Of a DNA stretch of 21,973 nt, positions 840-8,321 are shown piece after piece; positions within the stretch are counted from its first letter, which is position 1; each line of letters starts with the position of its first letter. Position numbers and translations under genes: made by a program. The DNA comes from a virus. The notes under the pieces are model-generated. The model made no database searches and was not told the origin of the DNA. It saw nothing but the letters and a program-made list of their open reading frames with translations. The stretch lies in the IMG/VR virus record IMGVR_UViG_3300023179_000565, positions 1 through 21,973 of that record; one strand, written 5' to 3'.

Positions 840-1970
840 TTAATAATTAAAATTCTTATACGTAATTTTTTCTCTAGGAATGTCCTTTAATGCTGTAAGA
901 AGCCACTTTTTCTGAAATTCTTCATTTGTGCAAAGGATGTATATTTGAGAGACTTTGGATTCTTCTTGAAGCAAAGTACGACCTAACTTTTGGAATAAAT
1001 TTTCTGAATTAGAGTTGATGTTAGTTATAACAACTGTATCTAAATTTTTGAAAGTTACCCCTTGTGATGCTAGTTGCACTAAACCAAGTTGATTAATTTC
1101 ACCATCCTGAAACTTCTTAAGATTATCTTCTTTGATATTTTTAGAATGATGTGTAGGAATTCCTAGCCCATCTACAAAATCTGTATCTGCTCCATATAAT
1201 AGATAACGTTTATCTTTTAAATGATGCATTAAGATTTTTGTATTCTTCTTAAGAGATGGTAGTTTATTAATGAATCGCATTCTATTTAATGCAGGAAACT
1301 TCATATCTCTGTGTTGCATTTTAGCAACATCTAACACTTTGGTTAAATACACAAGTTCTTTAGCTTCTGTAGTCATCCATTCTTTAGTTTTTGTTTTCTT
1401 GAGATATTGATTAACTCCATCTACATTAAATGTAATTACATTCACTTCATAGTTAGCTACAATTTTATCTTCGATAGCTGCTTCTGTATTGTATTCATGA
1501 CTAATCTTTAGTCTACAATATTCCCAGAGCTGATCTTTTGTTTTATCTGAATATGTACCAGACAATCCTAAGAATCGTTTATTATTTTGTAACAAACTAT
1601 CAAGATTAAATAAAGCATTATCAGATGCTTTATGTATCTCATCACCTACAATCATGTCAAACTTGTGTTTATCATGTTTGCTCACTGATAAATAGGTAGA
1701 ATAGTAAACCTCTTCAGGTTTCCATTCCATTTTCTCAAATTCATCTTCCCAAGCTTTTTTAATATTTAGTTCAGGATAGAGAATGAGAACACGCTTGACT
1801 TTCAAAGCCTGCATAATCATAATACCTAGTCTAGTTTTACCAAACCTTACACTAATATTAAAGCAAGTTTTAGGATTACCTGATAGATATTGATCTACCG
1901 CTTCTTGCTGTAATTGATCTCTAATATCACCCATGTTGTAAGAAAAATGTTTTGTTAACAACTGCCTCAT
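840..1970 (-). CDS. SF2-type DEXH helicase
   Basis: A 376-aa superfamily 2 helicase. Motif I is VRFGKT (residues 41-46), a variant P-loop. Motif II is DEIH (110-113) and motif III is SGT (137-139). A QKLGR stretch near residue 328 is the arginine-bearing motif VI. All core motifs are present, so it is probably active as an ATP-dependent DNA or RNA translocase, at about the minimal size for two RecA-like domains. It overlaps the 3' end of the DnaB-like gene. The start at 1970 gives a 44-base overlap, while an in-frame ATG at 1934 (MGDIRDQL) would reduce it to 8 bases and still keep the IRDQLQQEA stretch that resembles the usual Q-like region. Either is possible. Part of the replication operon. 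Confidence 0.82.
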   Translation of the reverse strand: MRQLLTKHFSYNMGDIRDQLQQEAVDQYLSGNPKTCFNISVRFGKTRLGIMIMQALKVKRVLILYPELNIKKAWEDEFEKMEWKPEEVYYSTYLSVSKHDKHKFDMIVGDEIHKASDNALFNLDSLLQNNKRFLGLSGTYSDKTKDQLWEYCRLKISHEYNTEAAIEDKIVANYEVNVITFNVDGVNQYLKKTKTKEWMTTEAKELVYLTKVLDVAKMQHRDMKFPALNRMRFINKLPSLKKNTKILMHHLKDKRYLLYGADTDFVDGLGIPTHHSKNIKEDNLKKFQDGEINQLGLVQLASQGVTFKNLDTVVITNINSNSENLFQKLGRTLLQEESKVSQIYILCTNEEFQKKWLLTALKDIPREKITYKNFNY

Positions 1971-2346
1971 AATCAGAATCAGTCATGTCTTTTCTTCTTG
2001 GTAGCTCCTTAAACATCCCAATTTGCCCTAAGAAGCCCAATCCAATTCGCACATCATCCTCACCAAAACTATTCTTAATTAGTCTTAGAGAACGATAATA
2101 CTTTGCACCATATTCATCCTTTAGTTTATCTAGTTGATAACCACTAGGGTCTTCCACTTTATATCTCATAGGATCAAATAATGCCAACACAACATCAGCA
2201 TCATTCTGAGTTGCTGAACTATCTGCAAAATCCTCTAATTGAGGTTCTACATCACCATTCTTAATCCTCATAGGATTAGCAATGTCACGATTGAACTGAG
2301 AGACTACCACTGGACTATAACCATAGAAATCTCTCGATTGTGTTAT
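1927..2346 (-). CDS. dnaB: DnaB-like replicative helicase, exon 2 (C-terminal part)
   Basis: This is the C-terminal exon (139 codons plus TGA) of the helicase whose first exon is at 3529-4191. It carries the VVVSQFNRD stretch, the DnaB H3-like motif with the glutamine/arginine region, then an acidic loop and a DADVVLALFDP strand typical of DnaB-family RecA folds. The open frame contains an ATG at 2349, but that codon overlaps the last bases of the intron, so I do not think it is a start. In the spliced product the sequence reads DELRYA|ITQSRDFYGYSP across the junction. The exon ends at 1927, just inside the SF2 helicase gene. Confidence 0.82.
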   Translation of the reverse strand: MTQSRDFYGYSPVVVSQFNRDIANPMRIKNGDVEPQLEDFADSSATQNDADVVLALFDPMRYKVEDPSGYQLDKLKDEYGAKYYRSLRLIKNSFGEDDVRIGLGFLGQIGMFKELPRRKDMTDSDYEAVVNKTFFLQHG

Positions 2347-3528
2347 CATTAGGCTCTTTATCCTAACTTCTGCATCTTATTTTGTTATTCATGCAGTCCA
2401 GACTATATCATCAACCAATTAAATTGGTTGTCGGGAGCTCGTGGGTATATTATATTCTATATTATAGTTTCAATACCTAGTCGTTGAACCTTCAAGTAGC
2501 TTTTACACTACGAGCTTGGCTGCTGATTGTCTGCTTCCAGATTTTCCAGCAATTCACCCAATTATCCATTATACATTACTGCATAAGGAGCCTTATAAAT
2601 ATTTCCATACAAAACCTTTACAAGTTTTATATTTAGGATTATTACTACTAACTGCTCTATGTAAATTTTCTGTTTTAACATTCATAGATTTTGCAGCTTC
2701 TGTAAGACTTTTAAAAGTTTCTAATAAATTACCATTTTTGTCAAATTTTAAAACTTCTTTTGCAACAGTTCTTTTTATATAAGAATTTATTTTTTTAGGA
2801 AAATCATATGTATTATATATTTTCCATAAATGATCGCAACTACTTTTATTTGTTTTAACACTTCTAGCTATATTTAAATGATTAGAATTATTTATATTAA
2901 AATATGATTTTATTTCATTTTCAGAATAAAAATATTTTACAAATTCTCCATTTAAATTATAACAACAATAAAGTTTTAATAAACTTTTAATTTTATCTTT
3001 TTTATAATATTTCCACTGAAACCCTCCAGATAAATTATGAGAGTTTTTATCATTCATGGCAGCACTAATAGAACACAAATTTAATGTTTGTTGTGCTTTA
3101 TTTATACTTTCCCATTCTTTAATAAAGTTTCCTTCTAAATCATATTGATAAGCTTTTTTTTCTCCTGTAGTGTTACAGGATGCATTTTTAGACATATTGT
3201 ATCCAAATTTTCTATCATAACTTTGATATAAATCTAACCAATATTGTTCTTTTTTTATCTTATCTTTATTATCTATAAGTATTTCTATTATAGAAATTTC
3301 AAGATTTTCTTTTCCGTACTTGTTATAAACAGCTTGTAAATAAGCTGAATGATGTGCGTTTCTTCTCAATCTTGATAAATGAGCAGCAATTCTTTTATTT
3401 ATATTATCTGAACTACCAATGTAAATTTTATTATTATGTTTCGTAGTAATTTTGTAAATTCCAATCATATATTTATATTTTTACAAATATAGATAATATA
3501 ATTGAATAATCCAAATTTATTTTATTTA
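2347..3528 (-). mobile_element. Group I self-splicing intron in the DnaB-like helicase gene
   Basis: The interruption between the two helicase exons shows the conserved group I core on the minus strand, in order: P element AATTGCTGGAAA (2543-2554), Q element AATCAGCAGCC (2518-2528), R element GTTCAACGACTA (2478-2489) and S element GATATAGTC (2401-2409). R and S pair through GACTA/TAGTC (P7). AACCAATT/AATTGGTT near 2412-2429 forms a P8-like hairpin, and CTGCAT/ATGCAG (2370-2396) a P9-like hairpin. The predicted 5' exon ends in U (GCT, last base 3529) and the intron ends in G (2347), as the mechanism requires. Joining these sites keeps the frame. The guide sequence for P1 is not clear; AAGGC at 2590-2594 is only a weak candidate. 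Length is 1182 nt, most of it taken by the endonuclease gene, which lies between the 5' splice site and the core. Confidence 0.88.
2593..3468 (-). CDS. GIY-YIG homing endonuclease inside the group I intron
   Basis: A 291-aa protein starting with the GIY-YIG nuclease fold: GIY at residues 3-5, YIG at 16-18, a conserved Arg at 26, and a Glu in the ENLEISIIE stretch near 54-62. The C-terminal two thirds hold about three copies of a short DNA-recognition repeat of the NUMOD1 kind, each with a pattern like YDLEGNFIKEWxSI, then A..L and a final GGFxWKY (roughly 108-155, 165-220 and 236-291). Such intron-encoded enzymes cut an intronless allele and spread the intron by homing. It is AT-richer than the exons and keeps its own start at 3468. 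No frameshift or lost motif is visible, so it looks functional. The stop at 2593 lies just upstream of the catalytic core. Confidence 0.9.
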   Translation of the reverse strand: MIGIYKITTKHNNKIYIGSSDNINKRIAAHLSRLRRNAHHSAYLQAVYNKYGKENLEISIIEILIDNKDKIKKEQYWLDLYQSYDRKFGYNMSKNASCNTTGEKKAYQYDLEGNFIKEWESINKAQQTLNLCSISAAMNDKNSHNLSGGFQWKYYKKDKIKSLLKLYCCYNLNGEFVKYFYSENEIKSYFNINNSNHLNIARSVKTNKSSCDHLWKIYNTYDFPKKINSYIKRTVAKEVLKFDKNGNLLETFKSLTEAAKSMNVKTENLHRAVSSNNPKYKTCKGFVWKYL

Positions 3529-4191
3529 AGCATATCTCAATTCATCAGACATCTTGTCTATAGAAGCTTTCTTTGTATTATGATCTTTGGTTAGTTTAAG
3601 CAAACCAATGTGATCAATAATTACAAGAGTTATTTCATTAGGATCATCAGGAATATATTTTTTATTCCACTTGTCCATTTGAATAATCTCACCACGTTCT
3701 AATGCATAGTCTCTTAGTTCTTTTGCTATACCTACTGCATTCTCTGGTCCATCGATGATGGTGATTTTTTCTTTCATTAATTCACCATATTCTTCATACT
3801 GTAAGAAAAGATCATGTTCATCGTGATTCATCTTATCAGTCCAACCTAACATCTTACCTACAGGAATAATAATTCCATGGTCTAGAAAGATTTTTCTACC
3901 AATCCATTTGGCATACTTGTAGGTTCTACTACGCTCCATTGATCTATAAATGATTTTTACATTAATCCCAGAGGCTTTACCCTCTGGGCTAATAGCCCAA
4001 TCAAATGGATTTAGTACATACGCATCATCAATAAAACTAGTTTTTCCAGAACCAGTTAAGCCACCAATCAAACTGTACATAGACTTACGAATACCAATGT
4101 ATCTATTCAATCTATCAAAGCCCATAGGAATGCCACCATTCTTACCATTTAAACCATCTTCAACCGCAATCTTAAGGTCTTGAAAACTCAT
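3529..4191 (-). CDS. dnaB: DnaB-like replicative helicase, exon 1 (N-terminal part)
   Basis: This exon encodes residues 1-221 of a RecA-fold replicative helicase. Walker A GGLTGSGKT is at 43-51, and Walker B VIIDH has its Asp at about 193. In the unspliced frame translation stops at a TAA right after GCT (Ala221), at 3526. With splicing it continues into exon 2 for about 360 aa in total. This is shorter than cellular DnaB (about 450-470 aa) and lacks the N-terminal primase-binding domain, as in many phage DnaB-like proteins. The intron sits between Walker B and the SQFNRD motif, a conserved site favoured by homing introns. The start ATG overlaps the stop of the 72-aa gene upstream (ATGA), so the two are likely coupled. 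Expected role: hexameric 5'-3' unwinding at the fork. Confidence 0.86.
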
Positions 4192-8120: not shown

Positions 8121-8150
8121 AAAAAAAAGCCCGAAATTTCTCTGGGGCTT
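8121..8150 (-). terminator. Rho-independent terminator after the tRNA-like gene
   Basis: On the minus strand AAGCCC (8150-8145) pairs with GGGCTT (8132-8127), and the stem is followed by a run of eight T. It lies 10 bases after the tRNA-like gene and before the next promoter-distal gene, so it should end the polymerase/tRNA transcript. Confidence 0.85.
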
Positions 8151-8159
8151 GTGTTAATT

Positions 8160-8321
8160 TAGTCAGGACCAGATTCGAACTGGCAATACTCAGTATTAAA
8201 ACTGCTGCACTGTATAATAGAGTTAGTAAGTATTTCACGCAGTAATCTAACTCTATGCGTCTACCAAGCTATAAGGGGAGTGTCATAGTTTCTCTGCTTA
8301 TAGGCATTCCGCCACCTGACT
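8160..8321 (-). tRNA. tRNA-Leu-like gene with strongly enlarged arms (161 nt plus discriminator)
   Basis: The ends form a perfect 7-bp acceptor stem (AGTCAGG with CCTGACT) followed by discriminator A at 8160; CCA is not encoded. The T arm is normal: GCCAG-TTCGAAT-CTGGT. The D arm has a class II leucine signature, GGTGGCGGAA ... TTGGTAGACGC, but a 38-39-nt segment with its own hairpin (CTATAAG/CTTATAG) splits the D loop. The anticodon region is a 10-bp perfect stem (ATAGAGTTAG/CTAACTCTAT, 8217-8256) with a 20-nt loop, and the variable region is 32-33 nt, ending in a small AATAC-TGA-GTATT arm typical for Leu. A normal tRNA-Leu is about 85 nt. I cannot assign an anticodon. It may be a tRNA with introns or inserted hairpins, a decoy, or a decayed gene; the intact stems argue against simple decay. 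Confidence 0.6.

Follow-up and report, generated by a model that had tools for sequence, protein, structure and literature searches.

A family of tRNA-Leu-like phage RNAs with a predicted pseudoknotted domain in place of the anticodon arm

We describe a 162-nt gene for a tRNA-Leu-like RNA that lies on the minus strand (8321..8160) of a 21,973-nt stretch of viral DNA (IMG/VR record IMGVR_UViG_3300023179_000565; the whole stretch is here called the window). The element is present within this record as one exact copy and carries extra RNA in the D loop, the anticodon arm and the variable region. From the comparison of its homologues, we assign it to a large RNA family that is found almost only in phage contigs and that is neither an intron-bearing tRNA nor a decayed pseudogene. 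The comparison shows that the anticodon arm and the variable arm are replaced by a predicted domain that evolves independently and is often pseudoknotted. We consider it probable (about 65%) that the members are non-decoding, tRNA-scaffolded phage RNAs that expose a structured domain to some target in the host.

Read from 5′ to 3′, the element consists of AGTCAGG, TG, GCGGAAT, a 38-nt insert, TTGGTAGACGC, a 72-nt middle, the T arm, CCTGACT and A73 (Table 1). It resembles a functional tRNA-Leu in its acceptor stem, its T arm and its D arm with G18G19 and A14, and the leucine identity elements of bacterial LeuRS are present (A73, A15-U48, G18G19 and the contacts between D and T loops). What it lacks is a 5-bp anticodon stem with a 7-nt loop, U33 and a conserved anticodon; a 10-bp helix (S1) is found there instead. 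A preliminary description of this DNA had reported intact tRNA-Leu arms with discriminator A, a hairpin-forming piece that splits the D loop, a perfect stem of 10 bp at the anticodon position, capped by a 20-nt loop, and an enlarged variable region. We recovered all of these, with the arms on the minus strand (8321..8160), a D-loop piece of 38 nt (8268-8305) and the stem with its loop at 8217-8256. Scans with ARAGORN and with the covariance models of Rfam left the element unmatched: ARAGORN calls neither a tRNA nor a tmRNA, and no Rfam family matches at E <= 1 under permissive thresholds, the score remaining below the Rfam tRNA threshold. Shorter relatives of the element score 31-44 bits as tRNA in Rfam. 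The terminator downstream was missed by a terminator scanner, for which its loop is too long, and a scan for sigma-70-type promoters, which says little about a probable Bacteroidota phage, found none upstream on the strand of the element.

Table 1. Parts of the tRNA-Leu-like element and its terminator in the window (S1-S4, helices of the middle domain)
Feature	Position	Strand	Evidence or remark
Complete tRNA-Leu-like RNA gene	8160..8321	-	162 nt; sequence and folding
Acceptor stem 5′ strand AGTCAGG	8315..8321	-	7/7 pairs with 8161-8167; stem covaries within the family
D stem 5′ strand and start of D loop GCGGAAT (A14, A15)	8306..8312	-	tRNA-Leu D-arm sequence
D-loop insert, 38-nt hairpin module GCCTATAAG...CTTATAGC	8268..8305	-	missing in same-middle homologues L276, L209 and L142
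End of D loop and D stem 3′ strand TTGGTAGACGC (G18G19, A20a)	8257..8267	-	sequence
Middle domain, 72 nt, replacing the arms of anticodon and variable region; predicted multi-pseudoknot	8185..8256	-	homologues on 23 further viral contigs
Helix S1 5′ strand ATAGAGTTAG	8247..8256	-	98/100 cells paired; double changes at 10/10 pairs
Helix S1 3′ strand CTAACTCTAT	8217..8226	-	same S1 covariation
Pseudoknot helix S2 5′ strand AATACTTA	8227..8234	-	60/60 cells over 6 pairs; double changes at 5
Pseudoknot helix S2 3′ strand TGAGTATT	8185..8192	-	adjoins T stem; final base is U48
Helix S3 5′ strand CTGCGT, inside S1 loop	8237..8242	-	58/60 cells paired
Helix S3 3′ strand GTGCAG	8205..8210	-	58/60 cells paired
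Small hairpin S4 CAG...CTG, within loop 3	8191..8204	-	30/30 cells over 3 pairs; one double change
T arm GCCAG TTCGAAT CTGGT	8168..8184	-	stem varies in homologues, pairing kept
Acceptor 3′ strand CCTGACT and discriminator A73	8160..8167	-	CCA not encoded
Intrinsic terminator AAGCCC-(12 nt)-GGGCTTTTTTTT	8121..8150	-	directly downstream of element; sequence

A search for the same insertions in related phages, as proposed in the preliminary description, was successful for the middle: using middle-specific and frame searches, we found nine further distinct homologues on 23 viral contigs. Two of the middle-specific patterns also matched stretches that lack the frame (10 and 4), all of which were discarded. 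We counted pairs on a hand alignment of the ten window-type sequences, five rows of which were checked by script against the raw sequences, since a MAFFT alignment shifts S1 by one base between subgroups. In this alignment, S1 (ATAGAGTTAG/CTAACTCTAT) has 98 of its 100 cells paired and shows changes on both sides at all ten pairs; its top five pairs correspond to the would-be anticodon loop, which is thus base-paired and not conserved in sequence. S2 (AATACT/AGTATT) joins the loop of S1 to bases beside the T stem and is paired in every one of its 60 cells, with double changes at five of the six pairs. S3 reads CTGCGT/GTGCAG in the window and CTGGAT/ATCCAG in five homologues, a switch from C-G to G-C, and 58 of its 60 cells are paired. 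When the 3′ partners were moved by one to three bases as a control, pairing fell to at most 57/100 for S1, 34/60 for S2 and 35/60 for S3. Furthermore, the pseudoknot score of the window middle is higher than that of 100 out of 100 shuffles. The small hairpin S4 overlaps with its last two bases the two outermost bases drawn for S2. The T stem varies as well, with ACAGG, GCAGG, GCTGG and GATGG among the homologues, and keeps its pairing.

S1, S2 and S3 cross one another and would therefore form a compact knotted domain. Taken together, the ten window-type sequences thus define a predicted compact multi-pseudoknot in place of the lower half of the tRNA. A nested energy fold, as had been suggested for 8160-8321, was obtained; however, we rejected it as the full structure, since it contains an ATAC/GTAT variable-arm helix in competition with the covarying S2, and this pairing gives way to the pseudoknot helix AATACTTA/TGAGTATT. 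The pairing of ACTGC with GCAGT noted in the preliminary description came close to the conserved contact, but the exact contact is the S3 helix in its two versions. As the would-be anticodon is base-paired and not conserved, the window-type RNA is predicted to be unable to decode codons.

To find further members, we used the pattern of a leucine-type D arm that is interrupted by 20-50 nt, for which about four chance matches were estimated. This yielded 33 viral stretches, of which 31 were judged real by eye as they run on into a T arm or a matching frame; L013 and L031 were rejected. In many of the 31, the entire region from D arm to T arm is un-tRNA-like as well. A frame search that did not require the insert gave at least 120 matches in viral contigs, and frames with other acceptor stems were found in 36 further stretches, most of them with acceptors that differ and are complementary at 7/7 positions. 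Among these independently found acceptors are GATTGAG/CTCAATC, TCCATAG/CTATGGA, GATGGAG/CTCCATC and AGGCAAG/CTTGCCT; AGTCAGG predominates in part because one of the search patterns required GTCAGG. In total, 215 elements with a tRNA-Leu frame were collected, comprising 14 with ordinary anticodon arms and 201 unusual ones, the latter on 155 loci. A looser test classed about six of these 201 as near-normal, and the later statistics leave them out.

In 84,980 prokaryotic genomes, the exact frame pattern has matches in just 6 contigs, 5 of which are short MAG contigs, compared to the at least 120 matches in viral contigs; the reversed pattern, used as a control in 16 phage records that carry up to five copies each, had no match. 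We thus conclude that the family is essentially a phage feature. Blast searches of 50,697 phage records with the element, the frame and a set of middles returned ordinary tRNA fragments and no recognisable member in any cultured phage of this collection. Covariance models of GOLLD and ROOL had no match in the window or in 20 loci, and no tmRNA with a tag peptide was recognised by ARAGORN or Rfam in the window and the loci scanned. In the open-licence papers that we searched there was no description of such an RNA class, and an earlier description elsewhere is possible. The family is apparently an undescribed kind of viral RNA that is covered by no Rfam family.

Most features of the frame are constant across the collection. 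The acceptor stem is paired at 7/7 positions in 189 of the 201 unusual elements and in 159 of the non-redundant ones (n=167), among which there are 35 different acceptor sequences on the 5′ side. The base that precedes the T stem (tRNA position 48) was demanded by no search pattern; it is T in 152/167 middles that are otherwise unrelated, with 27% as the background. As U48 is kept together with A15 of the D loop, the Levitt pair of the tRNA core is kept. A73 occurs in 136/167 elements (the 31 exceptions are 19 G, 7 C and 5 T), and in only 24/38 outside the group with GTCAGG acceptors. These patterns in the aligned sequences show that the tRNA-Leu frame, that is acceptor stem, D arm, T arm, U48 and usually A73, is kept by selection. 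In E. coli, leucylation needs A73, A15-U48, G18G19 and contacts between D and T loops, whereas the anticodon and the variable arm are dispensable (PMC9976931). By these rules, the features used by LeuRS are retained and the unused ones are dropped, and it is plausible that members with A73 are leucylated by LeuRS; since A73 is not universal, leucylation cannot be general. A 74-nt tRNA-like RNA at L034:10609-10682 joins the acceptor of the family (AGTCAGG/CCTGACT) to another frame with a class I D arm (GCTCAATGGTAGAGC), and its anticodon as given by ARAGORN is nonsense.

The middles are hypervariable: 167 remain after the removal of near-duplicates, and their length ranges from 23 to 151 nt. 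We compared each of 179 middles to 100 dinucleotide shuffles and found that 54 have, in the region from D arm to T stem, a pseudoknot matched by at most 5% of the shuffles (10.7 expected). In 33 of the 179, a nested, cloverleaf-like pair of stems in tRNA-like places is favoured (10.7 expected). Since only a minority is significantly pseudoknotted on its own and some are nested, the variable domain has no single shape. Covarying pseudoknots can also be seen by eye, for instance GCGCAC/GTGCGC in L104 and L115 versus GGGTG/CACCC in L191, and CGGG/CCCG in L082 and L123 versus ATGG/CCAT in L034. In L002, L218 and L249, the middle contains a second T-arm-like stretch (GGTTCGATTCC, GGTTCGAATCC and GGGTTCGAATCCCC) inside the first frame. 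For the group with AGTCAAG/TGGGAGATAATACTCAAAACTCC, taking out six bases would yield a CUCAAAA anticodon loop; we rejected this intron reading because the homologue L230 lacks U33.

The hairpin in the D loop is a second variable part. L276 and L209 have nearly the same middle as the window and no D insert, which defines the borders of the insert. The hairpin motif GCGYTGGGATAAAAACTGRGGCC occurs in 14 viral contigs and lies inside the D loop of such elements in all 13 that can be judged; in the remaining one (L278), whose 5′ side is beyond the end of the locus, a D-stem 3′ strand and a T arm come after the hairpin. This hairpin is combined with at least nine different middles, and L281 has it, together with a different acceptor stem, on a middle that L017, L147 and L161 have without the hairpin. 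Compared to shuffles, the 34 distinct D inserts, one of which belongs to the rejected L031, fold better (mean z -2.8; -2.5 for the window insert). With the same middle found with and without the insert, and one hairpin found with many middles, frame, D hairpin and middle are interchangeable. This comparison of contigs shows that middles, D hairpins and frames have recombined with one another, with the D hairpin as an optional second module. The earlier suggestion of tiny inserted mobile hairpins is thus right in that the D-loop hairpin is a discrete module recurring in 14 contigs; its movement as a mobile element would be hypothetical. Five of the six elements L111, L120, L122, L155, L162 and L003 form a family of D inserts with the constant loop GGTGTCC, in which the stem varies by paired substitutions (GAGGATGG/CCATCCTC, GGTAGGGG/CCCTTGCC, GTTAGGGG/CCCCTGAC), hinting at the loop as a candidate binding motif.

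Many members lie inside phage tRNA arrays, and some copies are in tandem. An ordinary tRNA is present within 500 bp of 80 of the 201 elements, always on the same strand (80/80); ARAGORN calls only 32 of them, with scattered anticodons. Relatives of the window phage have the same intergenic slot, between genes of 137 and 184 aa, and in most of them a very similar terminator, with no element beside it; in two of these relatives (L035 and L067), a member whose middle is different lies 8-9 kb from the slot. No consistent partner gene was detected: an RNA ligase is present in 4-6 of 18 records, RtcB in 1/18, Pth in 0/18 and LigT in 0/20. The genes of the window phage include a replication module with PolB, Sak4-like and DnaB-like proteins, and the helicase of this phage resembles only those of Bacteroides and Flavobacterium phages (about 23% identity), so that its host is likely a member of the Bacteroidota. 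The gene of this DnaB-like helicase (1927-4191, minus strand) appears split into an N part (4191..3526) and a C part (2349..1927) with a GIY-YIG homing endonuclease between them (3468..2593, minus strand), suggesting an intron or an inserted homing endonuclease. Two further RNAs were observed in the arrays: a freshwater-1 RNA (RF02979) at L034:10301-10363, in the same array as at least five family members, and a tRNA called by ARAGORN at L009:10000-10072 (minus strand) with the anticodon CTA, a TAG reader and possible stop-codon suppressor.

How could such an RNA act? It would likely be transcribed with tRNAs or like them, and matured and stabilised by RNase P, RNase Z and the CCA-adding enzyme, which are expected to act on the element because they read the acceptor, T and elbow half. 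For members with A73, charging of the frame by LeuRS is plausible as a second step. The mature RNA would then show its pseudoknot and its D hairpin to a putative host target. The rapid diversification suggests a role in conflict, in which the RNA may sequester a host factor that binds tRNA or acts in defence, or may serve as a stabilised regulatory RNA; counter-defence or host takeover as its use is our guess. More tentatively, and with somewhat less than even confidence, we envisage that phages possess a modular RNA system: a tRNA-Leu-like frame that can be charged would be its universal natural scaffold, and structured payloads (pseudoknots for the lower half, hairpins for the D loop), swapped between frames and phages, would act as effectors of counter-defence or host takeover.

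One alternative, already raised in the preliminary description, is a functional phage tRNA-Leu from which introns in the D loop, the anticodon loop and the variable region are removed to leave an ordinary 85-nt tRNA. In its favour, the acceptor, D and T arms are intact, members are present within tRNA arrays, and the window has a UAG triplet close to where it would be expected. However, all ten S1 pairs covary among the ten window-type sequences, and the would-be anticodon lies within S1 and is made of other bases in the homologues with pairing kept, so that no conserved anticodon exists and taking out the inserts does not restore a canonical anticodon arm. The would-be intron loop parts (S3 and S2) are the most conserved, the middles of other members are unrelated to one another, and some, at 23-36 nt, are too short for an anticodon arm and a variable arm. 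Moreover, 14 ordinary tRNA-Leu genes with readable anticodons occur in some of the same loci, and a partner for tRNA repair or ligation is not consistently present. The intron model is thus contradicted for the window type, and we consider spliced tRNAs very improbable. A decayed tRNA pseudogene with random insertions might be suspected of an RNA that is longer than a tRNA and missed by tRNA tools; yet the acceptor and T stems are perfect, all new helices covary, U48 is retained and there are nine distinct homologues, which makes this practically impossible, the covariation by itself ruling out the decay against which the preliminary description had cautioned.

Other alternatives accept that the RNA does not decode. 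As a decoy, its elbow and acceptor would occupy a host tRNA-binding defence protein or nuclease while the variable domain diversifies in an arms race. The restriction to phages, the tandem copies, the hypervariable middles and the absence of an anticodon next to a preserved elbow and acceptor fit this, and defence systems that target tRNAs are known, including the tail-cleaving Cas12a3 (PMC12851939). As no anticodon loop is present, a decoy for proteins that bind the elbow or acceptor is more plausible than one for anticodon nucleases. Yet no supporting co-occurrence was found, and a pure decoy leaves the internal S2/S3 pseudoknot unexplained that is conserved in distant phages; a decoy is thus possible but doubtful. 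It is rather unlikely that the frame is a cassette for processing and stability of a small regulatory RNA, the middle of which pairs with RNAs of the host or of rival phages: a constant frame, a variable payload and the interchange of D hairpin and payload would be expected, but the window-type payload is mostly self-paired and covarying and offers little free antisense sequence. An aminoacylated, anticodon-less RNA for ribosome rescue, with pseudoknots replacing the lower half, would match the tmRNA plan of a tRNA-like half with pseudoknots, and charging without an anticodon is possible (PMC9976931). Against such a function, which we regard as highly unlikely, the RNA is not recognised as tmRNA by ARAGORN or Rfam, the middle (23-151 nt) falls short of the length of a tmRNA body, an intact D stem is present here, and the identity looks like Leu and not Ala.

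If our preferred reading of a non-decoding RNA on a tRNA scaffold is true, hypervariable pseudoknots grafted onto a tRNA have built a large, overlooked class of viral RNAs that is common in phage metagenomes and that tRNA finders miss or give a wrong name. Among annotated phage tRNAs, some of those for which the anticodon is odd or undetermined may then not be tRNAs. A tRNA frame could accordingly be conserved for reasons besides decoding; the engineered tRNA scaffold would have a precedent in nature, and an RNA-based arms race would be hinted at.

When comparing the family to known systems, we find that none among tmRNA, GOLLD, ROOL, the Bacillus cereus pseudo-tRNA and freshwater-1 RNA has its combination of features. 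In tmRNA, a tRNA-like half is joined to pseudoknots and the D stem is absent. The family shares with it the fusion of a tRNA half to pseudoknots and the missing anticodon, but keeps the D stem, is far smaller, is Leu-like instead of Ala-like, has a hypervariable domain and has no identified tag reading frame. GOLLD and ROOL are structured non-coding phage RNAs of unknown function that are often found beside tRNA islands (PMC12286853); they are likewise structured phage RNAs near tRNAs, but have hundreds of nucleotides, form RNA nanocages and are not framed by a tRNA. The pseudo-tRNA tRNAOther of Bacillus cereus is a tRNA-like RNA without a role in translation (PMC3399842), as we propose for the family, but it is chromosomal and adjoins a genomic island, and we found no link from it to a phage family with interchangeable modules. 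Freshwater-1 RNA shares the tRNA array of L034 with the family, but is a separate 62-nt motif without a tRNA frame. With bacterial tRNA-Leu (class II; RF00005), the family has in common the acceptor stem, the T arm, the class II D arm GCGGAATTGGTAGACGC, U48 and usually A73, whereas it differs in having no anticodon arm and no anticodon, a predicted pseudoknot domain for the lower half and an optional hairpin in the D loop.
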